From an uncultured Ruminococcus sp. (GTDB lineage: Bacteria; Bacillota; Clostridia; Oscillospirales; Acutalibacteraceae), in contig CACYSI010000048.1 of assembly GCA_902776975.1 (NCBI GenBank), positions 1-35,094 of the forward strand: 35,094 nucleotides of DNA, in the 5' to 3' direction. Below are positions 10,524 through 23,797 of this stretch, in pieces. The notes below the pieces were generated by a model. It did no database searches. It had not been told where the DNA came from and was given only the letters and a program-made list of their open reading frames with translations. A program made the position numbers and the translations under genes. Within the stretch, counting starts at the first letter, position 1. Each line of letters opens with the position of its first letter.

Positions 10524-10539
10524 GTATTATTACAATCTT

Positions 10540-10632
10540 ACTTATCAAGAGCGACTGAGGGACAGGCCCGCTGAAGTCCGGCAACCTGCGTATGTAAGGT
10601 GCTAAATCCTGCGGTTTAACCGAAAGATGAGT
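10540..10632 (+). promoter_or_regulatory. SAM-I (S-box) riboswitch
   Basis: The conserved S-box core is present in order: CTTATCAAGAG, GACTGAGGGACAGGCCCG, TGAAGTCCGGCAACC, AAGGTGCTAAATCC and GAAAGATGAG. The P1 stem pairs ACTTATC with GATGAGT. SAM binding should favour the terminator that follows and so shut off metK, the enzyme that makes SAM. Confidence 0.96.
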
Positions 10633-10640
10633 ATATTATG

Positions 10641-10704: not shown

Positions 10705-11883
10705 ATGTCATATTTGTTTACATCGGAGTCGGTAACTGAGGGGCATCCCGATAAGGTGTGCGACAGAGTCTCCGATTCTATACTTGACGCGGTACTCGCG
10801 CAGGATAAGAACGCTCATGTAGCCTGCGAGACCACCGCTACTACAGGTCGTATCAATATCATGGGAGAGGTCAGCACTACCGCGCAGGTCGACTTTGAGG
10901 CTGTAGCGCGCAGGGCTGTCTGCGAGATAGGCTACGACTGTGAGAGAGCTACCTTTGACGGCAACACATGTGAGGTCAATGTGTTCCTTGACAGCCAAAG
11001 CCCCGATATAGCTATGGGCGTGAACGAGTCCTATGAGCACAAGGACGGCGACAGCGGCGACGAGAGCCAGCTCGGAGCCGGCGATCAGGGCATGATGTTC
11101 GGCTATGCCTGCGACGAGACTCCCGAGCTTATGCCGCTCGCGATCTCGCTCTCTCATAAGCTCGCTAAGCGTCTGACCGACGTACGCAAGAACGGCACTC
11201 TGCCTTATCTCCGTCCCGACGGCAAGACCCAGGTCACCGCTGAGTATGACGGCGATACAGTCAAGCGGGTCGATACTGTTGTTGTATCTACTCAGCACGA
11301 CGATGATATCCCTCTATCAAAGATCCGCGAGGATATCATCAATGTAGTTATAAAGCCCGTTATCCCCGCAGAGCTGATGGATGATGATACCAAGATATTC
11401 GTCAATCCTACAGGTCGCTTTGTCATAGGCGGCCCTGAGGGCGACTCCGGTCTCACCGGCAGAAAGATCATAGTCGATACCTACGGCGGTTACGCCCGTC
11501 ACGGCGGCGGCGCCTTCTCGGGCAAGGATCCGACTAAGGTAGACCGCTCGGCGGCTTACTATGCCAGATATATAGCTAAAAATATAGTCGCAGCCGGTAT
11601 AGCCAAAAAGGCTGAGGTGCAGCTCGCTTACGCTATAGGTGTGGCAAGACCGGTATCTGTCATGGTAGATACCTTCGGTACCTCAAAGTACAGCAACGAA
11701 GCTGTATCAAAGGCTGTTAATAAGGTGTTTGACGCTCGTCCGTCGTCGATAATCCGCTCGCTCGATCTGCTCAATACCAAGTATGCTCCGCTCTCATCCT
11801 ACGGTCATATGGGTCGTGAGGAGCTCGGCGTAAAGTGGGAGGATACCGATAAGACCGAGGCGCTTCTGCAGGCGCTCAATTGA
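10705..11883 (+). CDS. metK: S-adenosylmethionine synthetase
   Basis: A 392-residue methionine adenosyltransferase, forming SAM from methionine and ATP in the cytosol. It has the family signatures: [19 protein letters not shown] near the N-terminus (ATP and metal site), the hexapeptide region [12 protein letters not shown] at about 126-137, and [20 protein letters not shown] at about 267-286 (phosphate-binding P-loop). Length is normal for the family. AAGGAATGAGG precedes the ATG. It is transcribed alone from a consensus promoter through an S-box riboswitch, so SAM should repress it. The stop is followed by a strong hairpin shared with the convergent mazF gene. Confidence 0.98.
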
Positions 11884-13353: not shown

Positions 13354-13381
13354 TTGACATTTTGCTTTAATGTGCTAAAAT
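13354..13381 (+). promoter_or_regulatory. Promoter of the first T-box unit
   Basis: TTGACA and TAAAAT with a 16-base spacer, about 18 bases ahead of the T-box leader. Confidence 0.75.
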
Positions 13382-13398
13382 TAGCTATAGACAATTAA

Positions 13399-13669
13399 TA
13401 AAGGCTGTGACGAAGACGGTCAGGGCTATGCTTTTTCAGAGAGTCGGCGTATGGTGTGAGCCGACAGAGCTAACCTCAGTACCCATCCCTTCCGAGCCGG
13501 AGGCCCGAACGGCGTTGCTTAGTAGATACCTCCCGTGATTGCTGCGTAAAGGCATAGGGGTTGTCAGACCCTGAGAGCGGCAGTTTTATACTGCAAATTG
13601 AGTGGTACCGCGGATGTGATTATTCACACTCGTCTCAATGTTGAGACGGGTGTGTTTTTTTTGAGGTAC
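13399..13669 (+). promoter_or_regulatory. T-box leader, specifier probably AUC (Ile)
   Basis: A tRNA-sensing leader. The Stem I base AAAGGCTGTGACGAAGA closes with CCGAGCC. The AG bulge and distal loop read CAGAGAGTCGGC, then GTATGGTGTGA, then GCCGAC. The T-box core TGAGTGGTACCGCGG is at 13599-13613; its UGGU pairs with a tRNA ending ACCA, so the discriminator is A. Aligned on the closing GAGCC, the specifier position (13485-13487) reads ATC, isoleucine; the base after it is C rather than the usual purine, so the reading is tentative. It controls the first HTH-cupin-ligase gene. Confidence 0.9.
13625..13662 (+). terminator. T-box 1 terminator
   Basis: CACACTCGTCTCAA pairs with TTGAGACGGGTGTG (14 bases, one G-U, loop TG), followed by eight T residues. 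It competes with the antiterminator that contains the T-box core. Confidence 0.92.
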
Positions 13670-13670
13670 T

Positions 13671-14041
13671 GTCCAAGAAGCGGAGCCGCAGGCGAACGCT
13701 GATTGGCTAACAGTACCCACGCAAGGCTCTCCCAAGAACCGGAGCCGTAAGGCGAACGGTGATTGGCAGAGAGCTACTGCGAAGGCGCAAGTCCAAGAAG
13801 CGGAGCCTCAGGCGAACGCTGATTGGCTAACAGTACCCACGCAAGGCTCTCCCAAGAACCGGAGCCGTAAGGCGAACGGCGATTGGCAGAGAGCTACTGC
13901 GAAGGCGCAAGTCCAAGAAGCGGAGCCGCAGGCGAACGCTGATTGGCTAACAGTACCCACGCAAGGCTCTTCCAAGAACCGGAGCCGTAAGGCGAACGGC
14001 GATTGGCAGAGAGCTACTGCGAATAGGTCCAAGAAGCGGAG
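13671..14041. repeat. Tandem 120-base repeat, three copies plus remnant
   Basis: Three copies begin at 13671, 13791 and 13911 with GTCCAAGAAGCGGAGCC. The period is exactly 120 and only about four positions differ; a broken fourth copy starts at 14027. Each unit is itself two diverged 60-base halves, both carrying CCAAGAA-x-CGGAGCC, AGGCGAACG and GATTGGC. One forward frame stays open through all copies (a 40-residue period) but contains no ATG, GTG or TTG, so it is probably not translated. The array lies between the T-box terminator and the ligase start, inside the 5' leader. Confidence 0.95.
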
Positions 14042-14148
14042 AGAAAATCTTTAACGCTGATTACATCTGTCGTGAACAAACCGCTCATTACAAGGCGTGA
14101 TATTTATTAATTGGTCTGATATTTATATTGATCAATGGAGGAAATACT

Positions 14149-16287
14149 ATGTCAGTTGTAGACAACGAAAAACTCATGGAGGTCGCGGAGCGTATCCGCG
14201 AAATGCGTGAGATCAGCGGCTTTTCCGTTGAAGAAATGGCAGAAAAGACCGAGGTCAGCGTATCTGAGTACAAGGCTTATGAAAACGGTACTGTTGATTT
14301 CCCTTTTACCTTTATCCACAAGTGCGCTTTGGCTTTCGGTCTCGGCATCACCGATATCCTCGAGGGTGAGTCGGCTCGTCTCAAGAGCTATACAGTGACC
14401 CGTCGCGGCGGCGGCAGACAGACCGCCGAGGAAGAGGGCATATCTATCGTGAACGTCGCTCCGATGTTCAAAAACAAGATCGCCGAGCCTTACTTTTGCA
14501 AGTATGACTACAACGAGGAGCTTCAGACTAAGCCTATCCACCTCACTAAGCACGCCGGACAGGAGTTCGACTTTGTACTCTCGGGCAAGATGAAGATACA
14601 GATCGGAAATAACTTTGAAGAGCTTGCAGCCGGCGACAGCATCTATTATAATTCGTCCACGCCTCACGGTATGATCGCTATCGGCGGCGAGGACGTCAAG
14701 TTCATCGCGATCATCCTCCCGGGCGAGAAAGAGTCCGAGGAGCTTGACGACGGCGTCATGAAGTCTCATATCGCTAAGAAGTCCGCTATCACCGGTCAGT
14801 TCGTGCGCACTCTCGAGGACGGAGACGGTTGCCTGAAGGCTATCAACTTCCGCAACGAGGATAAGTTCAACTTTGCCTTTGATTGCGTTGACGCTATCGC
14901 GAACAACACTCCCGATAAGCTCGCGATGCTCCATATCTCAAAGGATAAGACAGAGCGCCGCTTTACATTCAACGATATGAAGCGCCGTTCAAATCAGACG
15001 GCTAATTACTTCAAGAGCCTCGGCATCAAGAGGGGCGACCGTGTAATGCTCGTCTTAAAGCGTCATTACCAGTTCTGGTTCTCGATGCTCGCTCTGCATA
15101 AGCTCGGAGCTATAGCTATCCCCGCAACTAATCAGCTGCTCGCTCACGACTTTGAGTATCGCTTCAATTCAGCGGGAGTCAGCGCTATCGTAGCTACCGC
15201 CGACGGCTCTGTCGCCGACTCTGTGGATGAGGCGCAGAAGACCTGCCCGACCCTTACCACAAAGATCCTTGTAGGAGGCACAAGAGAGGGCTGGCGAGAC
15301 TTTAACAGCGAGTTTGAGATGTACTCTACCCATTATTATCGCACAGTTGATACACCCTGCGGCGACGATACCATGGTTATGTTCTTTACATCCGGCACTA
15401 CCGGTTATCCCAAGATCGCCGAGCACAGCTACAAGTATGCTTTAGGTCACTATGTCACGGCTAAGTACTGGCACGGCGTCGATCCCGACGGTCTGCATTT
15501 CACTATCTCCGATACAGGCTGGGGCAAAGCTCTGTGGGGCAAGTTCTACGGTCAGTGGCTCTCCGAGGGCGCTGTCTTTACATATGACTTCGACCGCTTT
15601 CACGCGGATGATATCCTCCCGATGTTCGCCAAATACCACATCACTACCTTCTGCGCTCCGCCTACCATGCTGCGCATGATGATCAAGGAGGATATCAGCA
15701 AGTACGACCTTTCCAGCATAGTGCATATGACTACAGCGGGCGAGGCGCTCAATCCCGAGGTTTACAGACAATTCAAGAAGGCTACCGGACTCAGGATCAT
15801 GGAGGGCTTCGGTCAGACTGAGACCACCCTTACTATCGGTAACCTCTTCGGCACCAATCCCAAGATCGGCTCTATGGGCAAACCTACTCCCGGCTATGAT
15901 ATCGACATAGTCGATCCCGACGGCAATCCCGTCCCCGACGGCGAGCCCGGCGAGATCATCATCCGTACCGATAAGCGCGTACCCTGCGGCTTGTTCAAGG
16001 GCTATTACAACAATCCCGAGGCTACTGCCGAGGCGTGGCACGACGGCATGTATCATACAGGCGATACAGCCTGGAGAGATGAAGACGGCTACTTCTGGTA
16101 TGTAGGCAGAACAGACGACGTCATCAAGAGCTCGGGCTATCGTATCGGGCCGTTTGAGATCGAGTCTGTTATCATGGAGCTGCCCTATGTGCTCGAGTGC
16201 GGCGTATCTGCCGCTCCCGATGAGGTCAGAGGTCAGGTCGTTAAGGCTTCTATCGTGCTTGTAAAGGGCCAGCGCAACAAATTATAA
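14149..16287 (+). CDS. HTH-cupin-acyl-CoA ligase fusion, C-terminally shortened
   Basis: A 712-residue fusion. Residues 10-72 are an XRE helix-turn-helix (IREMREISGFSVEEMAEKTE). Residues 108-190 are a cupin (HAGQEFDFVLSGKMKIQIG, then TPHG). From about 235 it is an AMP-forming acyl-CoA ligase related to short/medium-chain acyl-CoA synthetases, with P-loop FFTSGTTGYPK at 412-422 and A8-type KSSGYRIGPFEIES. The start is the ATG after GGAGGAA. Compared with its paralogue at 16711, it lacks about 43 residues near the C-terminus: IVLV-KG is joined directly to QRNKL, so the PKTTSGK motif with the adenylation lysine is gone. It is led by a T-box reading Ile; 2-methylbutyrate would be the fitting substrate, but with the lysine lost it may be inactive or regulatory. 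Confidence 0.88.
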   Translation: MSVVDNEKLMEVAERIREMREISGFSVEEMAEKTEVSVSEYKAYENGTVDFPFTFIHKCALAFGLGITDILEGESARLKSYTVTRRGGGRQTAEEEGISIVNVAPMFKNKIAEPYFCKYDYNEELQTKPIHLTKHAGQEFDFVLSGKMKIQIGNNFEELAAGDSIYYNSSTPHGMIAIGGEDVKFIAIILPGEKESEELDDGVMKSHIAKKSAITGQFVRTLEDGDGCLKAINFRNEDKFNFAFDCVDAIANNTPDKLAMLHISKDKTERRFTFNDMKRRSNQTANYFKSLGIKRGDRVMLVLKRHYQFWFSMLALHKLGAIAIPATNQLLAHDFEYRFNSAGVSAIVATADGSVADSVDEAQKTCPTLTTKILVGGTREGWRDFNSEFEMYSTHYYRTVDTPCGDDTMVMFFTSGTTGYPKIAEHSYKYALGHYVTAKYWHGVDPDGLHFTISDTGWGKALWGKFYGQWLSEGAVFTYDFDRFHADDILPMFAKYHITTFCAPPTMLRMMIKEDISKYDLSSIVHMTTAGEALNPEVYRQFKKATGLRIMEGFGQTETTLTIGNLFGTNPKIGSMGKPTPGYDIDIVDPDGNPVPDGEPGEIIIRTDKRVPCGLFKGYYNNPEATAEAWHDGMYHTGDTAWRDEDGYFWYVGRTDDVIKSSGYRIGPFEIESVIMELPYVLECGVSAAPDEVRGQVVKASIVLVKGQRNKL

Positions 16288-16302
16288 TAAGACGTAAAAA
16301 CG

Positions 16303-16324
16303 GGGCGCGGGCAAGCCTGTGCCC
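16303..16324. other. Hairpin after the first ligase gene
   Basis: GGGCGCGGGC pairs with GCCTGTGCCC over ten bases with two G-U pairs and almost no loop. No T-run follows, so it is a weak terminator at best. Confidence 0.35.
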
Positions 16325-16337
16325 TGCAAATTACGGG

Positions 16338-16366
16338 TTGACAAACATATAAATATGTGATAAGAT
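16338..16366 (+). promoter_or_regulatory. Promoter of the second T-box unit
   Basis: TTGACA and TAAGAT with a 17-base spacer, 11 bases ahead of the second T-box. The second ligase and the genes behind it therefore need not depend on the first leader. Confidence 0.8.
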
Positions 16367-16376
16367 AAGACGAGTT

Positions 16377-16670
16377 AAAGGCTGTGACGAAGAGGACTCG
16401 GTCAGTCCGTCACTCAGAGAAGGAGCGGTTGGTGAAAGCTCCCGTGACGTTTTCCGTGTTTGTAGCTTTTGAGCCGGGGAGAAGAAAGCGGCTTTGCCGT
16501 GATTAGACCTCCTCCGTGATTACTGCGTAAAGGTATAGGGGTTACTGCCGTATCGATAGAAAAGGCATCAGACCCTGAGAGCGGCGCGACAGAATTGACG
16601 CGCAATTTGAGTGGTACCGCGGGTGTTATACGCTCGTCTCAAAGTTATTACTTTGGGATGAGCGTTTTTA
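16377..16670 (+). promoter_or_regulatory. T-box leader, specifier probably GUA (Val)
   Basis: The same layout as the first T-box. The base is AAAGGCTGTGACGAAGAGGAC closing with TTTTGAGCC. The stem GTCAC/GTGAC encloses the AG bulge CAGAGAA and the distal hairpin GGAGC/GCTCC. The T-box core TGAGTGGTACCGCGG is at 16608-16622 (discriminator A). In the helix below the specifier loop AAGAG pairs with CTTTT, which places the specifier at 16462-16464: GTA, valine, followed by the expected purine G. TTT (Phe), three bases earlier, is the less likely alternative. Confidence 0.92.
16631..16669 (+). terminator. T-box 2 terminator
   Basis: CGCTCGTCTCAAAG pairs with CTTTGGGATGAGCG (14 bases, two G-U), followed by five T residues. 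Confidence 0.9.
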
Positions 16671-16710
16671 TTATGAGATCGCTTATCCCGCAAAAGAGGT
16701 ATTAAAAGGT

Positions 16711-18996
16711 ATGGAAAAAATCACTTCATTGGATCTGAAAATCAAAGAGATGGCAGCTCGTATCCGTGAGCTGCGTGAACTTGAAGGCAAGACTATAGCT
16801 GAGATGGCTGCCTTCACCGACGTATCCGAGGACGAGTATATCGCCTGTGAGTCGGGCGAGCAGGATCTGAACTTCGCGTTCATTTACCGTGTATCGCAGG
16901 CTCTCAACGTCAATGTTACCGAGATCATCGAGGGTATCTCTCCTAATCTTAAGTCCTATACGGTTACCCGCAAGGGGCTCGGACAGAAGGTATCTCAGGC
17001 TCACGGCATGACTTATTATAACCTTGCCTATGCGTTCCAGAATCGTATCGCCGAGCCTCTGTATGTTAAGAGCAAGTATAATCCCGATAAGCAGAACAAG
17101 CCCATGGAGTTGACTACTCATGACGGTCAGGAGATAGATATCGTCATCGAAGGTCAGCTTATGGTACAGGTAGGCGATCATAAAGAGATATTAGGCCCCG
17201 GAGATACTATCTATTTTGACTCTAACACCCCTCACGGTGAGATGGCTGTAGGCGAGCAGGATTGTATCTTCTACGCTATCGTCCTCAATCCCAAGGGCGA
17301 GCCTATCCCCGAACTCACTCATACCAAGGCTATAGCGGCAGCTAAGGTCGAGAACACCGATACCAAAGAGCGTGTATGGAAGAAGTTTGTTGACTATGAG
17401 GTCAACGAGAACGGCACTCCCACTAAGGTGACCTTTAAAAACGAAGATTCTTTCAACTTCGGCTTTGATGTTATAGATGAGATATCCTATAAGGATCCCG
17501 AAAAGCTCGCGATGATCCATGTAGGTAAGGATAAGACCGAGCATCGCTTTACATTTACCGATATTCGTCACGCGTCATGTCAGTGCGCTAACTACTTCAA
17601 AAGCCTCGGTATCAGACGCGGCGACCGTGTCATGCTGATCCTGAAGCGTCATTATCAATTCTGGTTCGCTATCATCGGTCTGCATAAGCTCGGAGCTATC
17701 GCTATCCCGGCGACTAACCAGCTGCAGGCTCACGACCTTGAGTATCGCTTCAAGGCGGCGGGTGTTTCGGCTATACTCTGTACCGGCGACGGCTACTCTG
17801 CCGAAGAGGTAGAGAAGGCTATGGAGAGCTATCCGCAGCTCAAGCGTATCATGGTCAACGGTGTACGCGAGGGATGGCGCAACTTTGACGAGGAGTATAA
17901 GCTCTTCTCATCTCACTTCAAGCGCACTGAGCATACTCCCTGCGGCGACGATATCATGCTGATGTACTTTACATCCGGCACATCCGGCTATCCTAAGATA
18001 GCAGCCCACAGCTACAAGCTGGCTCTGGGTCACTTCATGACGGCTCACTTCTGGCATAATGTCGATCCCGACGGACTGCACTTCACCATATCCGATACAG
18101 GTTGGGCAAAGGCAGCGTGGGGCAAGCTCTACGGTCAGTGGCTGTGTGAGGCTCCGATGTTCGTTTACGACTTCGACCGTTTCCACGCCGACGACATCCT
18201 GCCGATGTTCGCTAAATATAAGATAACTACCTTCTGCGCTCCGCCTACGATGCTGCGTATGATGATCAAGGAGGATATCAGCAAGTACGATTTCTCCTCA
18301 GTCAAGCGCATGACTACAGCTGGCGAGGCGCTCAATCCCGAGGTATATAATCAGTTTGAAAAGCTGACAGGCTTGCAGATCATGGAGGGCTTCGGTCAGA
18401 CCGAGACCGCCGTCATCATCTGCAACATGATCGGCGCTCCGCATAAGATCGGCTCTATGGGTAAGCCCTCGCCGATATATGATATCCACCTTATCGATAA
18501 AGACGGCAACGATGTACCCGACGGCGAGCCCGGCGAGATCGTAATCAATATATCCGAGAAGATGCCCTGCGGTCTTGCTCTGTACTACTACAATGATGTT
18601 GAGAGCACTCGCAAGAACTGGCGCAACGGCTATTATCACACAGGCGACCTCGCGTGGCGTGATGAAGACGGCTTCTTCTGGTATGTAGGCAGAGCCGACG
18701 ACGTCATCAAGAGCTCGGGCTACCGTATCGGACCGTTCGAGATCGAGTCGGTCATCATGGAGCTGCCTTATGTTCTCGAGTGCGGTGTTTCAGCCGCTCC
18801 CGACCCTGTCAGAGGTCAGGTAGTCAAGGCTTCTATCGTCCTTGTAGCCGGTACCGAGGGCACAGACGAACTCAAGAAGGAGATCCAGGATTACGTCAAG
18901 ACTCATACCGCTCCTTATAAATATCCGCGTATCGTAGTATTCCGCGACGCTCTGCCCAAGACCACCAGCGGCAAGATACAGCGAAACCTGCTGTAA
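16711..18996 (+). CDS. HTH-cupin-acyl-CoA ligase fusion, full length
   Basis: A 761-residue paralogue of the upstream fusion. Residues 12-75 are an XRE helix-turn-helix (IRELRELEGKTIAEMAAF). Residues 112-195 are a cupin (HDGQEIDIVIEGQLMVQVG, then TPHGEMAVG). An acyl-CoA ligase covers about 245-761, with P-loop YFTSGTSGYPK (419-429), KSSGYRIGPFEIESV, and an intact C-terminal PKTTSGKIQRNLL whose lysine 755 should be the catalytic A10 residue. The enzyme would make acyl-AMP and then acyl-CoA from a short carboxylic acid. Its own promoter and a T-box that reads Val precede it; isobutyrate is the fitting substrate, by inference. A downstream ATPase gene follows after 15 bases, then vor and ilvE. 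The HTH-cupin part could make it a self-regulating enzyme. Confidence 0.92.
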   Translation: MEKITSLDLKIKEMAARIRELRELEGKTIAEMAAFTDVSEDEYIACESGEQDLNFAFIYRVSQALNVNVTEIIEGISPNLKSYTVTRKGLGQKVSQAHGMTYYNLAYAFQNRIAEPLYVKSKYNPDKQNKPMELTTHDGQEIDIVIEGQLMVQVGDHKEILGPGDTIYFDSNTPHGEMAVGEQDCIFYAIVLNPKGEPIPELTHTKAIAAAKVENTDTKERVWKKFVDYEVNENGTPTKVTFKNEDSFNFGFDVIDEISYKDPEKLAMIHVGKDKTEHRFTFTDIRHASCQCANYFKSLGIRRGDRVMLILKRHYQFWFAIIGLHKLGAIAIPATNQLQAHDLEYRFKAAGVSAILCTGDGYSAEEVEKAMESYPQLKRIMVNGVREGWRNFDEEYKLFSSHFKRTEHTPCGDDIMLMYFTSGTSGYPKIAAHSYKLALGHFMTAHFWHNVDPDGLHFTISDTGWAKAAWGKLYGQWLCEAPMFVYDFDRFHADDILPMFAKYKITTFCAPPTMLRMMIKEDISKYDFSSVKRMTTAGEALNPEVYNQFEKLTGLQIMEGFGQTETAVIICNMIGAPHKIGSMGKPSPIYDIHLIDKDGNDVPDGEPGEIVINISEKMPCGLALYYYNDVESTRKNWRNGYYHTGDLAWRDEDGFFWYVGRADDVIKSSGYRIGPFEIESVIMELPYVLECGVSAAPDPVRGQVVKASIVLVAGTEGTDELKKEIQDYVKTHTAPYKYPRIVVFRDALPKTTSGKIQRNLL

Positions 18997-19011
18997 GCTC
19001 GGGTGGATACT

Positions 19012-19674
19012 ATGAATTATAAACGTTTAACCATACTCTGCGGTCATTACGGCTCGGGAAAGACCAATATCGCCGTCAATATGGCGCTCGATCTGCGCTC
19101 TCAGCGCGACAATGTAGCCATAGCCGATCTCGATATAGTCAACCCGTATTTTCGGAGTAAAGACAGTGAAGATGAGTTCAGAGAGCATGACATCCGTCTG
19201 ATATGCTCTGAGTTCGCTTCGTCAAACGTCGATCTGCCGTCTATGCCCGCCGACCTTTATTCGATAACAGATGATAAAAGTCTGAGCGTTATCATGGATA
19301 TCGGCGGCGACGACAGAGGAGCTTACGCTCTCGGCAGACTCCGTGATATGATCCTCGCTGAGGATGACTATGAGATGCTTATGGTCGTCAACAAGTTCCG
19401 CCCACTCACTCCCGACGCTCCCTCGGTGATCGAGGTCATGCGTGAGATAGAGGCGGCGTGCGGCATACCGTTCACCGGCATTGTGAACAACTCTAACCTT
19501 GCCGATGAAACATCCGCGGAGGATGTTCTCGGTTCCCGGAAGTTCGCTGAAGAGGTATGTGAGTTATCAGGGCTGCCGCTTGTGCTGACTACAGTAAACG
19601 AAAAGCTCTATGATGCGCTTAAAGATAAGATGAGCCCGTTGTTCAGCTTGAAGCTCCAAAAGAAACCGATATAA
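19012..19674 (+). CDS. MinD/ParA-like P-loop ATPase
   Basis: A 220-residue protein with a deviant Walker A, GHYGSGKTNIAVNMA, at about residues 10-24, DLDIVNPYFRSK after it, and a Walker B-like strand VIMDIGGDDRGAYALGR. Guanine/adenine-type contacts are suggested by VVNKFRP and VNNSNL. This is the SIMIBI class to which MinD, ParA, CobQ and Fe-S carrier ATPases belong; the specific subfamily is not recognised. The ATG preceded by GGGTGG is used; an in-frame GTG lies nine bases upstream. It directly follows the Val T-box ligase and precedes the ferredoxin oxidoreductase genes, so a role in assembling or serving that Fe-S enzyme is possible, but unproven. Confidence 0.75.
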   Translation: MNYKRLTILCGHYGSGKTNIAVNMALDLRSQRDNVAIADLDIVNPYFRSKDSEDEFREHDIRLICSEFASSNVDLPSMPADLYSITDDKSLSVIMDIGGDDRGAYALGRLRDMILAEDDYEMLMVVNKFRPLTPDAPSVIEVMREIEAACGIPFTGIVNNSNLADETSAEDVLGSRKFAEEVCELSGLPLVLTTVNEKLYDALKDKMSPLFSLKLQKKPI

Positions 19675-19705
19675 GCGATTTGTCTAATCTATAGGTAACG
19701 TCCCT

Positions 19706-19864
19706 TTGTAGGGGAGGGTCTTGACCCTCCCGATTGAAAATTTTATGATTTTCAATATCCCCTTGTGTTTCAATATTTCTATTCTTAATGTTTTATCAAG
19801 CATAAGGTAAGTGTCGCGTGACGCTCAAATCACGTGAGCGGGCGGGTCAAGCCCCGCCCCTACA
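19706..19864. repeat. MITE-like repeat with GGGAGGGTC ends, copy 1
   Basis: The left end TTGTAGGGGAGGGTC with TTGACCCTCCCG, and the right end CGGGCGGGTCAAGCCCC then GCCCCTACA, are inverted copies of each other, and each end is also a palindrome by itself. The 159-base element has an AT-rich, non-coding centre. A second copy with the same ends and a different centre lies at 22496. It separates the ATPase gene from the vor genes. Confidence 0.75.
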
Positions 19865-19910
19865 TAGGCGTTCTCTATTGCTCATAACAATCAAAGAAGG
19901 GAAAATGTAT

Positions 19911-20117
19911 ATGGCAAAACTGACATTCAAGACCGACAACTGCAAGGGTTGCGCTCTGTGTGTAGACGCCTGCCCCAAGGGCATCCTGCGTATCGCCACA
20001 GACAAGATCAACAAAAAGGGTCATCATCCCGTCGAGTGCACCGATATGGATCAGTGTATCGGCTGCGCCTCGTGCTACATGATGTGTCCCGACTGTATTA
20101 TCAAGGTAGAAAGGTGA
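19911..20117 (+). CDS. 2-oxoacid:ferredoxin oxidoreductase, ferredoxin (delta) subunit
   Basis: A 68-residue two-cluster ferredoxin. Two [4Fe-4S] motifs are visible: CKGCALCVDACP (from residue 11) and CIGCASCYMMCPDC (from about 49). It would pass electrons between the thiamine-bearing core and external ferredoxin. The second of two close ATGs is chosen because it lies about nine bases from AGAAGGG; the other is only three away. The frame is open further upstream but that stretch is part of the repeat element. It is nine bases ahead of the alpha subunit gene. Confidence 0.9.
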   Translation: MAKLTFKTDNCKGCALCVDACPKGILRIATDKINKKGHHPVECTDMDQCIGCASCYMMCPDCIIKVER

Positions 20118-20126
20118 TGAAAAGCT

Positions 20127-21191
20127 ATGGCAGATAAGATTTTGATGAAGGGTAACGAGGCTATCGCCGCCGCCGCTATCAAAGCCGGCTGCATGCATTA
20201 CTTCGGTTATCCTATCACACCTCAGACCGAGATTGCCGCTTACATGGCTAAGGTCATGCCTAAGATCGGCGGTACCTTCCTGCAGGCTGAGTCTGAGATC
20301 GCCGCTATCAATATGGTCTACGGCGTAGCATCCGCAGGTAAGAGAGTTATGACATCCTCGTCCTCTCCGGGCGTATCCCTTAAGGGTGAGGGTATATCCT
20401 ATTTGGCAGGCTCCGATCTGCCCGCTCTGGTAGTCAACGTACAGCGCGGCGGCCCCGGCCTCGGCGGCATCCAGCCTTCACAGTCCGACTACTTCCAGTC
20501 TACCCGCGGCGGCGGTCACGGCGACTATCACATGATAGTTCTCGCTCCCGCTTCAGTTCAGGAGATGGCTGAGCTGACAGTAAAGGGCTTTGAGCTTGCC
20601 GATAAATACCGCGTTACATCTATGGTCCTCGCCGACGGTACTATGGGTCAGATGATGGAGCCCGTATCTATCGAAGATCTCGAGGTCAAGCCCGCTCCCG
20701 AAAAGCCCTGGGCTACCACAGGTACTCAGATGGCTCGTGAGCACAATATCGTAAACTCTCTCTCTCTTGTTCCCGAAGAGCTCGAGCAGCTCAACTTTGA
20801 GCGCTATGACCGCTATAAGGTCATCGAAGAGAACGAGACTCTGTATGAAGAGTACAAGGTCGATGACGCCGACATCGTCATCGCCGCTTTCGGTATCGCC
20901 GCGCGTGTAAGTAAGAACGCTGTTGACGAAGCCCGTAAGCTCGGCATCAAGGTCGGTCTCATCCGTCCCATCACTCTCTGGCCGTTCCCCAAGGCTCCCT
21001 TCAAGAAGGCCGCCGAGCACGCTAAGGCGTTCATCTCGGTAGAGCTCAATATGGGTCAGATGATCGAGGACGTTCAGCTCGCTATCGAGTCTAAGTGTCC
21101 CGTAACCCTTTGCAACCGCGCGGGCGGTATGATCCCCGATCCCGAGCAGGTGCTTAATTCTATAAAAGAAGTAAACGGAGGTATCGCGTAA
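20127..21191 (+). CDS. vorB: 2-oxoacid:ferredoxin oxidoreductase, alpha subunit (Vor type)
   Basis: A 354-residue alpha subunit of a four-subunit oxidoreductase acting on 2-oxoacids, CoA and ferredoxin. It has GNEAIAAAAIKAGCMHYFGY followed by PITPQTEIAAYMA, EAESEIAAINM-type QAESEIAAINMVYGVASAGK, SSSSPGVSLKGEGISYLAG and QRGGPGLGGIQPSQSDYFQ. These match proteins usually named VorB (3-methyl-2-oxobutanoate dehydrogenase). In reverse with reduced ferredoxin it could carboxylate a branched acyl-CoA. The stop overlaps the beta start by one base (TAATG). Substrate range cannot be read from sequence; the adjacent ilvE and Val T-box favour branched 2-oxoacids, but 2-oxoglutarate or others are not excluded. 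Confidence 0.9.
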   Translation: MADKILMKGNEAIAAAAIKAGCMHYFGYPITPQTEIAAYMAKVMPKIGGTFLQAESEIAAINMVYGVASAGKRVMTSSSSPGVSLKGEGISYLAGSDLPALVVNVQRGGPGLGGIQPSQSDYFQSTRGGGHGDYHMIVLAPASVQEMAELTVKGFELADKYRVTSMVLADGTMGQMMEPVSIEDLEVKPAPEKPWATTGTQMAREHNIVNSLSLVPEELEQLNFERYDRYKVIEENETLYEEYKVDDADIVIAAFGIAARVSKNAVDEARKLGIKVGLIRPITLWPFPKAPFKKAAEHAKAFISVELNMGQMIEDVQLAIESKCPVTLCNRAGGMIPDPEQVLNSIKEVNGGIA

Positions 21192-21949
21192 TGGCTGTAT
21201 TTGAAAAACCGCATGCGCTCATTGATGTGCCGCTGCATTATTGCCCCGGCTGTACCCACGGTATCGTTCACCGTCTCGTAGCCGAGGTCATCGACGAGCT
21301 CGGTATCGAGGGCAAGACCATCGGTATCGCTCCCGTAGGCTGCTCCGTTATGGCTTATAACTACTTCAACTGTGATATGATCGAGGCTGCTCACGGCCGA
21401 GCTCCGGCTGTAGCTACAGGCGTTAAGCGCGCCGATCCCGATAACCACATCGTATTCACCTATCAGGGTGACGGCGACCTCGCTTCTATCGGTATGGCTG
21501 AGACGGTTCACGCCGCAGCCCGTAACGAGAACATCACCGTTATCTTTATCAATAACGCTATCTATGGTATGACAGGCGGTCAGATGGCGCCTACATCTCT
21601 TGTAGGTCAGGTCACACAGACCTCTCCCTACGGCAGAGATCCCAAGCTCTGCGGCTATCCGATCAAGGTTTGTGAGATGCTCTCTGAGCTGGTAGGCCCC
21701 GAGTATCTCGAGCGTGTTACCGTAAACAATGTCAAGAATGTCCGCAACGCTAAGAAGGCTATCAAAAAGGCGTTTCAGAACCAGATCGACGGCAAGGGAT
21801 TCTCTCTCGTAGAGGTAGTATCCTCCTGCCCGACCAACTGGGGCATGACTCCCAAGCAGGCTCTCCAGTGGATCGAGAGCGATATGCTGCCTTACTATCC
21901 CTTAGGCGTATACAAGGATCGCTCCGCAGAGCAGAAGGAGGCAGAGTAA
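21191..21949 (+). CDS. vorA: 2-oxoacid:ferredoxin oxidoreductase, beta (TPP) subunit
   Basis: A 252-residue thiamine-diphosphate-binding subunit. CPGCTHG near residue 18 supplies conserved cysteines for an iron-sulfur cluster. YQGDGDLASIG at about 95-105 followed by INNAIYGMTGGQMAPTS is the GDG...N metal/TPP motif. With the alpha and gamma subunits it forms the catalytic core. The start overlaps the alpha stop, and the stop overlaps the gamma start (TAATG again), so translation is probably coupled. The length is normal for short beta subunits of the Vor/Kor group. Confidence 0.9.
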   Translation: MAVFEKPHALIDVPLHYCPGCTHGIVHRLVAEVIDELGIEGKTIGIAPVGCSVMAYNYFNCDMIEAAHGRAPAVATGVKRADPDNHIVFTYQGDGDLASIGMAETVHAAARNENITVIFINNAIYGMTGGQMAPTSLVGQVTQTSPYGRDPKLCGYPIKVCEMLSELVGPEYLERVTVNNVKNVRNAKKAIKKAFQNQIDGKGFSLVEVVSSCPTNWGMTPKQALQWIESDMLPYYPLGVYKDRSAEQKEAE

Positions 21950-22485
21950 TGAGCGCTAAAAATATGTTATTCTCCGGCTTCGGCGGTCAGGGTATCCTGT
22001 TCGCGGGTAAGTTCATAGCTTATAAGGGTCTTATTGAGGATAAGCAGGTATCTTGGCTGCCCTCATACGGTCCCGAGATGCGCGGCGGCACAGCTTCCTG
22101 CTCAGTTATCGTATCTGATACACCCGTTGGCTCTCCGATAGTCAGCAATCCCGATATCTTAGTCGCCATGAACCTGCCTTCTCTCGACAGATTCGAAGAT
22201 AAGGTCGTATCGGGCGGTATGATCTTTGCCGACAGCACTCTTATCGAGCGTAAGGTCGAGCGTGATGATGTTAAAGTCTTTTATATCCCCGCTACCAAGA
22301 TGGCTTCGGATGAGAAGCTCGGCAATCTGGCTAACATGATCATCGTAGGCAAGCTCCTTAAGGAGACAGGCGACTATACAGAAGAGGGTATCAGAGCCGC
22401 TCTTGATAAAGTCATCCCCGCAAAGCGCGCCAACATGAAGGATGTCAACTTCAAGGCTATTCAGATGGGCGCTGAGTTTGAATAA
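21949..22485 (+). CDS. 2-oxoacid:ferredoxin oxidoreductase, gamma subunit
   Basis: A 178-residue gamma subunit. It begins [20 protein letters not shown], the GFGGQG signature, and has [19 protein letters not shown], the second family signature, followed by [21 protein letters not shown] near the C-terminus. GGAGG lies nine bases before the ATG. It is the last of the four vor genes. No terminator follows directly; instead a palindromic repeat begins ten bases after the stop, before ilvE. Confidence 0.9.
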
Positions 22486-22495
22486 GCTGAGCTTA

Positions 22496-22661
22496 TTGTA
22501 GGGGAGGGTCTTGACCCTCCCGGGCAAAAGGATGTCTGAAAAGTCGTTTGCCATGATATTAACACTTTATTTTTTCGTTCGTTTGTAAGTGGATGAAATA
22601 TTCTTATTTTTTCGATCTGCTTACGCAGTTCGAACGGGCGGGTCAAGACCCGCCCCTACAA
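22496..22661. repeat. MITE-like repeat with GGGAGGGTC ends, copy 2
   Basis: The left end TTGTAGGGGAGGGTC is identical to copy 1 over at least 27 bases; the right end CGGGCGGGTCAAGACCC then GCCCCTACAA is its inverted relative. The element is 166 bases with an AT-rich centre unlike copy 1. RNA from it would form a hairpin at each end and could act as a processing or termination site between vorC-side genes and ilvE. Confidence 0.75.
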
Positions 22662-22686
22662 TCACATTATGAAGAGGAATGCTATT

Positions 22687-23751
22687 ATGGATATCAAAGT
22701 TACATTAAATCCCAATCCCAAGAAGAAGCCCGAAGATACTTCTACTCTCGGCTTTGGTAAGATCTTTACAGACCATATGTTCCGCTGGAGCTGGAACAGC
22801 GAAAAAGGCTGGTACAATCCCCGTATCGTACCCTTTGAGCGCCTTTCCATCCATCCCGCTTCCACCGTGCTGCACTACGGCTCCGAGATCTTTGAGGGTC
22901 TTAAGGCTTATCGCCGCGCTGACGGTAAGGTACAGATGTTCCGTCCTATCGAGAACATCCGCCGTATGAACAACTCCGCTGAGCGACTCTGCCTGCCTCA
23001 GATGCCTGAGGATGACTTCATGCAGGCTCTTATCGAGTTTGTACGCTTAGAGCAGGATTGGACTCCTGCCGATAAGGGCACATCTCTCTATCTGCGTCCG
23101 TTCATGTACGGCGATGACGAGAGCCTCGGCGTACACGCTGTTCACAACGCTGAGTTTATCATCATCGCTTCTCCCGTAGGCTCTTACTACAAAGAGGGTC
23201 TCAACCCCGTTAAGATCATGATCGAGGATCAGGATGTCAGAGCGGTACGCGGCGGTACAGGCTACGCTAAGTGCGGCGGTAACTACGCTGCTTCCAACCG
23301 TGCCGGCGAGCGCGCGGAGCAGATGGGCTACAGCCAGGTTCTCTGGCTCGACGGCGTTGAGCGTAAGTACATCGAAGAGGTCGGCGCTATGAACGTTATG
23401 TTCAAGATCGGCGACGAGATCGTTACTCCTAAACTGACAGGTTCTATCCTGCCCGGTATCACCCGTAAGAGCTGCATCGAGGTTCTGGCTGACGAGGGTA
23501 TCAAGGTATCCGAGCGTCTGCTCTCTGTTGAGGAGCTTTCTAATGCCATGACAGACGGCACTCTTGCCGAGGCATGGGGCTGCGGTACAGCGGCTGTTAT
23601 CTCTCCGATCGGCGAGCTGTGCTACAAGGATCATAAGTATACGGTAAACAACAACGAGATCGGCGAGCTCTCTCAGCATCTGTATGATACCATCACAGGT
23701 ATCCAGTGGGGCGAGATCGAAGATAAGTTCGGCTGGACCGTACAGGTTTGA
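22687..23751 (+). CDS. ilvE: Branched-chain amino acid aminotransferase
   Basis: A 354-residue class IV PLP aminotransferase of the longer (BCAT/eukaryotic-like) type. It interconverts Val, Leu and Ile with their 2-oxoacids using glutamate. Features: VLHYGSEIFEGLKAYR (about 58-73), RPFMYGDDESLGVHA, GGTGYAKCGGNYAASNRAG with the PLP lysine near residue 187, and WLDGVERKYIEEVGAMNVMF. The ATG seven bases from AGAGGAA is used; another ATG 18 bases upstream is poorly placed. It follows the vor genes across a repeat element and ends at a strong terminator. Here it would finish synthesis of, or start degradation of, branched-chain amino acids. Confidence 0.95.
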   Translation: MDIKVTLNPNPKKKPEDTSTLGFGKIFTDHMFRWSWNSEKGWYNPRIVPFERLSIHPASTVLHYGSEIFEGLKAYRRADGKVQMFRPIENIRRMNNSAERLCLPQMPEDDFMQALIEFVRLEQDWTPADKGTSLYLRPFMYGDDESLGVHAVHNAEFIIIASPVGSYYKEGLNPVKIMIEDQDVRAVRGGTGYAKCGGNYAASNRAGERAEQMGYSQVLWLDGVERKYIEEVGAMNVMFKIGDEIVTPKLTGSILPGITRKSCIEVLADEGIKVSERLLSVEELSNAMTDGTLAEAWGCGTAAVISPIGELCYKDHKYTVNNNEIGELSQHLYDTITGIQWGEIEDKFGWTVQV

Positions 23752-23770
23752 TTTAATAAATATAGAATTA

Positions 23771-23797
23771 AACGGCAGGGTAAAACCTGCCGTTTTT
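23771..23797 (+). terminator. Terminator after ilvE
   Basis: AACGGCAGG and CCTGCCGTT form a perfect 9-base stem with a six-base loop, followed by TTT. Confidence 0.88.

Follow-up and report, generated by a model that had tools for sequence, protein, structure and literature searches.

The 35,094-nucleotide stretch of DNA analysed here (hereafter the window; contig CACYSI010000048.1 of assembly GCA_902776975.1, an uncultured Ruminococcus sp.) carries on its forward strand, between positions 13354 and 23797, a gene cluster which in all probability (we put it at about 0.85) serves to convert branched short-chain acids from the surroundings of the cell into branched-chain amino acids, each of its two acid-activating ligases being switched by the transfer RNA (tRNA) of its end product. 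In the proposed route ligase 1 would convert 2-methylbutyrate, and ligase 2 isobutyrate, into the coenzyme A (CoA) ester with cleavage of ATP to AMP; a 2-oxoacid:ferredoxin oxidoreductase (Vor) would combine the acyl-CoAs with CO2 at the expense of reduced ferredoxin, and the branched-chain aminotransferase IlvE would transaminate the resulting 2-oxo acids to isoleucine and valine. The acids themselves would be supplied by neighbouring microbes. In rumen bacteria, isobutyrate gives rise to Val, 2-methylbutyrate to Ile and isovalerate to Leu, according to the passages of PMC7356843 and PMC2812497 which cite Allison, Robinson et al. (1966-1971); PMC2812497 itself infers the 2-methylbutyrate route in a methanogen. 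The whole route of activation, reductive carboxylation and transamination had been proposed in an original prediction made from the sequence of the window, and the specifier codons, the association of the genes in relatives and the likeness of the ligases to the enzyme of structure 3ETC lend support to this proposal.

Arrangement of the Cluster and Its Conservation in Relatives

The first unit of the cluster opens with a promoter-like site (TTGACA-16-TAAAAT, 13354-13381, 11 of 12 consensus positions), followed by a T-box leader (13398-13640) with its terminator hairpin (13625-13654; 13 pairs, then T8), three 120-nt tandem repeats (13671-14030; the identity of the copies to the first one being 98% and 93%) and the gene of ligase 1 (ACS1; 14149-16287, the start being taken as the ATG at 14149). 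The second unit has its own promoter-like site (TTGACA-17-TAAGAT, 16338-16366, 10 of 12 consensus positions), T-box leader (16375-16644) and terminator hairpin (16630-16665; 16 pairs, then a T-rich tail) in front of the full-length gene of ligase 2 (ACS2; 16711-18996), assigned by domain and profile matches. Since the scan gave 17 promoter-like sites vs. a shuffle mean of 10.7, and 12 terminator-like sites vs. 8.9, only the strong sites are meaningful. Downstream of ligase 2 lie the gene of a P-loop ATPase of the MinD/ParA/Mrp kind (19003-19674; matches to Pfam CbiA and ParA just under their cut-offs), perhaps involved in iron-sulphur assembly, four adjacent vor genes and ilvE (22669-23751; NF009897, 477.5 bits at a cut-off of 307; TIGR01123, 397.1 bits at a cut-off of 250), after which a terminator-like hairpin of 10 pairs is found (23770-23795). 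The vor genes encode the 4Fe-4S ferredoxin subunit VorD (19905-20117; the open reading frame opens at 19818, and in most relatives the alignment starts near residue 22-32), the alpha subunit VorB (20127-21191), the thiamine pyrophosphate-binding beta subunit VorA (21191-21949; PF02775, E = 2e-22) and the gamma subunit VorC (21949-22485; PF01558, E = 5e-34; the frame opens at 21868, the ATG at 21949 being the likely start). Only VorB exceeds an NCBIfam cut-off (NF005507, a subfamily model; 545.6 bits at a cut-off of 399), the other three subunits, all under such cut-offs, being placed by Pfam domain and neighbourhood. Two fused ligases, each behind its own promoter and T-box, then an ATPase, four vor genes and ilvE had been described in the original prediction, and all of them were found at their places. 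Repeats of 27-29 nt occur at 19706, 19836, 22496 and 22630, near vorD and ilvE.

Of 595 confirmed candidates, the 80 best, all of them named loci, represent the relatives here (L-numbers below denote loci, G-numbers genomes). Ligase 2 is present on all 80 loci and ligase 1 on 55 of them; vorB was detected on 57 loci, which carry the ATPase in 57 cases, ligase 1 in 51 and ilvE in 46, many of the contigs ending early. The gene order in relatives is more than chance, and the association of ligase, vor and ilvE, proposed earlier from the window, holds in them. Among the named contigs listed, those closest in ligase 2 (92-95%) mostly bear the label uncultured Ruminococcus or Clostridiales. Four loci (L060, L061, L087, and L104) have ligase 2 behind a Val T-box and no vor, vorB being found elsewhere in the genome.

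T-box Leaders and Their Specifier Codons

Both T-boxes of the window match the RF00230 model over its whole length (1-219 of 219), the antiterminator part included, and share the core TGGTACCGCG. Their scores in a permissive whole-model scan, 77.0 bits (E = 1.1e-15) for T-box 1 and 75.0 bits (E = 3.5e-15) for T-box 2, lie below the Rfam gathering score of 93, so that a scan at the standard cut-off misses them, and the gathering-score scan of the window listed no T-box. Six ligase T-boxes of three relatives (L117, L055, and L108) score from 73.3 to 92.8 bits, i.e., all below 93. Seven T-boxes were found in the genome; the four located outside the branched-chain units head cysE/cysS, pheS, a trpB-like gene and thrS (translations judged by eye).

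T-box 1 bears the specifier ATC (Ile; 13485-13487) with the UGGN core at 13603, and T-box 2 the specifier GTA (Val; 16462-16464) with the core at 16612. In the relatives specifiers were read by script, apart from ATC of L031, L194, L200, and L202 and GTA of L068, L082, and L173, which were read by eye; the reading for L202, whose T-box core deviates, is the least sure one. The first set of leaders was restricted to loci carrying the exact core TGGNACCGCG, and this core was found, the window included, upstream of 49 genes of ligase 1 and 71 of ligase 2 as well as in 17 further positions. All 49 ligase-1 leaders bear ATC (48 by script, one by eye), and all 70 readable ligase-2 leaders bear a Val codon (66 GTA and two GTC by script, two GTA by eye), the one remaining leader, that of L093, being cut at the contig start and therefore dropped. 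At the 17 other places the codon is CTC (Leu) in 16 cases and uncertain in one, the Leu leader of L089, which is probably CTC and was left unread. The second set was drawn from 100 genomes sampled across the family (99 genera), with no more than 10 ligase candidates scored in each. Of the 46 fused ligases listed there it comprised 42 (the four ligases of G000 and G039 were left out), four of them already in the first set and 38 new. Again, ATC was read in 25 of 25 new leaders of ligase-1 type (22 by script, three by eye) and a Val codon in 13 of 13 of ligase-2 type (11 GTA and one GTC by script, one GTA by eye), bringing the combined counts to 74/74 for Ile before ligase 1 and 83/83 readable leaders for Val before ligase 2. 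The sensing of amino acid shortage through Ile and Val tRNAs, suggested by the original prediction, is thus supported by the codon of every readable ligase leader. In the part of PMC7778990 covered, AUC makes up 99% of Ile specifiers and CUC 74% of Leu specifiers.

The T-boxes are predicted to act by antitermination upon binding of uncharged tRNA. Uncharged tRNA-Ile would stabilize the antiterminator of T-box 1 and allow the full transcript of ligase 1, and uncharged tRNA-Val would do the same at T-box 2, which would control ligase 2 and also head the ATPase, vor and ilvE genes.

Substrate Prediction for the Two Fused Ligases

Both ligases are composed of N-terminal helix-turn-helix (HTH) and cupin parts and an AMP-binding domain, and such a fused protein may have derived from neighbouring genes. 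The solved structure nearest to ligase 2 by sequence is 3ETC (603 bits vs. 335 for the next one), the MacsMa enzyme of Methanosarcina acetivorans, for which the portion of PMC10455477 consulted names 2-methylbutyrate as the preferred acid and Trp259 as critical for substrate binding. The same structure ranks first by fold, with 48% identity in the fold alignment, for a model of ligase 2 (mean predicted local distance difference test score 77.8, 28 sequences), which consists of N-terminal helices, a strand-rich middle and the ligase part and was not used for pocket geometry. The pocket Trp corresponding to Trp259, which stands instead of the Trp of the acetate type, is kept in all 130 aligned ligases, 52 of ligase 1 and 78 of ligase 2, the window included. 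Its conservation, along with 3ETC being by far the nearest structure, points to branched rather than unrelated acids as the probable substrates, in agreement with the original prediction.

In a tree of 138 distinct proteins (52 of ligase 1, 78 of ligase 2 and eight unfused relatives) the paralogues fall on separate sides of branches with a modest support of 80 and 65. As the paralogue labels come from similarity to the window proteins, it is the specifiers, not the labels, that constitute independent evidence. The paralogues are separated at the level of at least 85% by 15 positions, 14 of which belong to the HTH-cupin half and one, position 466 (codon 18106-18108 in ligase 2 of the window), to the ligase domain. 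This position is occupied by Gly in 52/52 sequences of ligase 1 and by Ala in 78/78 of ligase 2; among the new family-wide sequences Gly was found in 24/25 of ligase-1 type and Ala in 13/13 of ligase-2 type, which leaves one exception in 168 ligases. The eight unfused relatives have Gly (six) or Met (two). Residue 466 aligns directly before Lys256 of 3ETC and four residues before Trp259, and is Gly in 3ETC. The fused ligases resemble MacsMa in the ligase domain and in the Trp, and ligase 1 also in the Gly preceding the Lys, whereas ligase 2 has Ala for this Gly, and the aligned chain of 3ETC is devoid of the HTH-cupin part. Presumably, Ala466 makes the pocket of ligase 2 smaller and fit for a smaller acid.

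The HTH-cupin part is conserved approximately like the rest of the protein, the C-terminal domain excepted. In four matches to the fused protein (contigs C58 of G020, C45 of G045, C94 of G028 and C39 of G026) the ligase part is separated from the HTH-cupin part by a stop, or the two parts occupy adjacent frames.

Co-occurrence With the Classical Pathway

In the genome of the window, which is 97.75% complete, neither ilvC nor ilvD was matched, and the one match to leuB is partial, with 28 bits. In a sample of 60 genomes of the genus, 22 are Vor-positive (21 over the cut-off and G014, in which Vor is cut at the contig end). Among these, ilvC is present in 2/22 vs. 36/38 Vor-negative genomes (Fisher test, 1e-11; two below-cut-off fragments, of G013 and G024, being counted), ilvD in 2/22 vs. 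30/38 (1e-7; with one such genome, G024) and leuB in 1/22 vs. 36/38 (7e-13; matches over the cut-off only). The 31 genomes of best quality, counted separately, gave 1/12 vs. 19/19 for ilvC, 1/12 vs. 16/19 for ilvD and 1/12 vs. 19/19 for leuB. Fifty source genomes of the named loci (50 of the 80) carry vorB in 49 cases, 48 of them over the cut-off, and ilvC over the cut-off in two, weak matches to the ilvC model being present in 24 more, the genome of L087 among them. The lack of ilvC, ilvD and leuA expected from the original prediction was accordingly confirmed for the first two genes, mostly missing from Vor-positive genomes of the genus; for the leucine branch leuB was examined in place of leuA, and it is mostly lacking as well.

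The family-wide sample discriminates between the ligases. ilvC was found in 1/18 genomes with ligase 2, 6/10 with ligase 1 only and 56/72 with neither (the last group taking in 14 genomes with unfused relatives), and Vor in 17/18, 10/10 and 29/72, respectively. According to these counts, the loss of ilvC tracks ligase 2 and not Vor as such, as the proposed route predicts, in which isobutyrate activation alone would make the Val pathway dispensable. Neither Vor nor ilvC was found in 13 of the 100 genomes.

Observations That Weaken the Proposed Route

A number of observations have to be set against the synthesis of amino acids by the cluster. The co-occurrence counts and p-values ignore shared descent, and Vor alone, being present in 29 of the 72 genomes without fused ligases, does not predict the loss of ilvC family-wide. 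Both routes are kept in G026, G041, G155 and the genomes of L039 and L055; the genome of L087 contains an ilvC fragment of 48 bits at a contig end, which may be real; and G139 possesses ligase 2 with no match to Vor. The exception at position 466, L186, is the single ligase listed in G126, a genome of 1.1 Mb without ilvC: it is of ligase-1 type and stands behind an Ile T-box, and it carries Ala466. Additionally, both ligases match MbcS (NF047394) best among the NCBIfam models, with 378.1 and 420.8 bits at an equivalog cut-off of 850, and for this reason they are not filed as MbcS.

A further point concerns ligase 1 of the window itself, in which about 42 C-terminal residues are absent, the catalytic Lys among them (KG is followed by QRNKL). 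This Lys is kept in 51 of the 52 ligase-1 rows, the exception being that of the window, and in 78/78 ligase-2 rows. The cut protein is probably unable to adenylate unless the assembly is in error; the residues may be truly lost, or their absence may be due to faulty assembly. We consider the chances to be about even that in this strain ligase 1 is decaying and that ligase 2 alone, with relaxed specificity, does the work. The in-frame loss of the catalytic residue and the example of G126, which manages with a single ligase, speak for such decay, while the rest of the gene remains open, its product is 92-94% identical to the six closest named relatives, and the contig belongs to a draft assembly, where an error is possible.

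A Leucine Unit Outside the Window

Another contig of the same genome, C24 (L114, 6254-11443), carries a Leu T-box with the specifier CTC (112.3 bits), a LeuA-like gene, a gene for a fusion of a triosephosphate isomerase (TIM) barrel with a ligase, and an amidohydrolase gene. Leu T-boxes scored from 112.3 to 123.8 bits in five of the six sources scanned, and none was found in the sixth (L108). The LeuA-like gene begins 71-173 nt downstream of the T-box in 16 of the 17 Leu-type leaders, the seventeenth being cut by a contig end; it is followed by the 841-residue fusion with its xylose-isomerase-like TIM barrel and, in L055, by the amidohydrolase. Of the 26 vor loci that span 19 kb or more, 18 contain the fusion, and both G045 and G026 have a single run made up of the LeuA-like gene, the fusion, ilvE, the ATPase, vor and a ligase. 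The ligases of G045 and G026 (L119 and L120), which lie in these runs, have Met at position 466, and the exact T-box core was not found on either stretch.

The LeuA-like proteins share the HMGL-like and LeuA_dimer domains with LeuA (2-isopropylmalate synthase), and the 22 Vor-positive genomes of the genus encode one LeuA_dimer protein each, G026 encoding two. Unlike LeuA, none of the 45 LeuA-like proteins retains the metal-binding HxH pair (the first His alone persists in one) or both R and D of the LRDG motif (position taken from the alignment), and the genome of the window has no leuB over the cut-off. We take these residues to be catalytic in LeuA. Within the LeuA_dimer domain, by contrast, GDGP(I/V)DA is nearly invariant.

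Most likely, this unit activates isovalerate, which would then give leucine through the same Vor and IlvE. That the ligase of the fusion serves some other acid, leucine being obtained by another route or by uptake, seems to us rather unlikely, even though the best match of this ligase is to the model of another subgroup (NF009233, with 678.6 bits at a cut-off of 832) and the LeuA_dimer domain is kept. Against it stand the CTC codon in 16/17 leaders and the equal number of leaders running straight into the LeuA-like gene, the joining of the unit with vor and ilvE in single runs, the absence of leuB over the cut-off in 21 of the 22 Vor-positive genomes of the genus, and the loss of the HxH pair, which makes the normal leuA route unlikely. 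Three findings go beyond the original prediction: the Leu unit, the single residue that tells the paralogues apart, and the missing C-terminus of ligase 1.

A more elaborate scheme, which we offer tentatively and at less than even odds, would have three ligases for 2-methylbutyrate, isobutyrate and isovalerate, each under its own T-box, sharing one Vor and one IlvE and replacing the classical pathway in most of their holders. Gly or Ala at position 466 would set the choice between Ile and Val, the HTH-cupin part would exert a second, substrate-level control, and the LeuA pseudoenzyme, with its conserved leucine-domain motif, would sense leucine on behalf of the third ligase.

Other Fates of the Acyl-CoA Esters

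MbcS of Staphylococcus aureus provides acyl-CoA primers for branched membrane fatty acids, and the first rank of MbcS among the NCBIfam matches of the two ligases, though below its cut-off, allows a mainly lipid destination of their products to be considered. We regard it as improbable: the linkage to vor and ilvE, the Ile and Val specifiers and the absence of ilvC favour amino acids, and the two uses could exist side by side. Still less credible is the opposite direction, in which branched-chain amino acids would be fermented via IlvE and Vor to acyl-CoAs and acids, since, reversible in principle as both enzyme families are, the ligases group with AMP-forming, acid-activating enzymes, T-boxes turn genes on in amino acid shortage (cf. 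the four that head cysE/cysS, pheS, the trpB-like gene and thrS), and the genome offers no match to ilvC or ilvD and a merely partial one to leuB.

Relation to Known Systems

The synthesis of branched-chain amino acids proposed for the cluster would use the same acids for the same amino acids as the reductive carboxylation described by Allison and Robinson. That work, as it is cited in the sources covered, was biochemical; the present data add candidate genes from Ruminococcus-like genomes and amino-acid-specific RNA switches. T-boxes are known to control ordinary genes of branched-chain biosynthesis as well as tRNA ligases (PMC2494555, in the part covered), and these classical leaders likewise combine branched-chain specifiers with a position before amino acid genes. 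In contrast to them, the leaders described here precede acid-activating ligases and Vor, with one specifier per paralogue. With VOR (2-ketoisovalerate:ferredoxin oxidoreductase) the cluster shares a VorB passing the curated cut-off and the four-subunit set, and its putative activity would be towards branched 2-oxo acids; the difference lies in the location of the genes downstream of a Val T-box and together with a ligase. The titles and abstract openings of the open-access papers covered contain no T-box control of acid-activating ligases or Vor, no assignment of one codon to each paralogue and no Leu unit, and the words "ferredoxin" and "acyl-CoA" are absent from the main text of PMC2494555, PMC3766115, and PMC7778990. 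Within this open-access literature, the pathway is old biochemistry, and its wiring, a T-box for each ligase, is the new part.

The cluster provides gene candidates for the use of branched short-chain acids, and ligase 2 with Vor in a genome without ilvC may be used as a genomic marker of likely dependence on these acids. The specifier codons tell which amino acid each ligase would serve and thereby supply a testable annotation of enzyme specificity. A set of T-boxes lying below the standard cut-off was also brought to light.

Upstream of the cluster, an S-adenosylmethionine riboswitch (10539-10633, 82.6 bits) precedes the S-adenosylmethionine synthetase gene (10705-11883).

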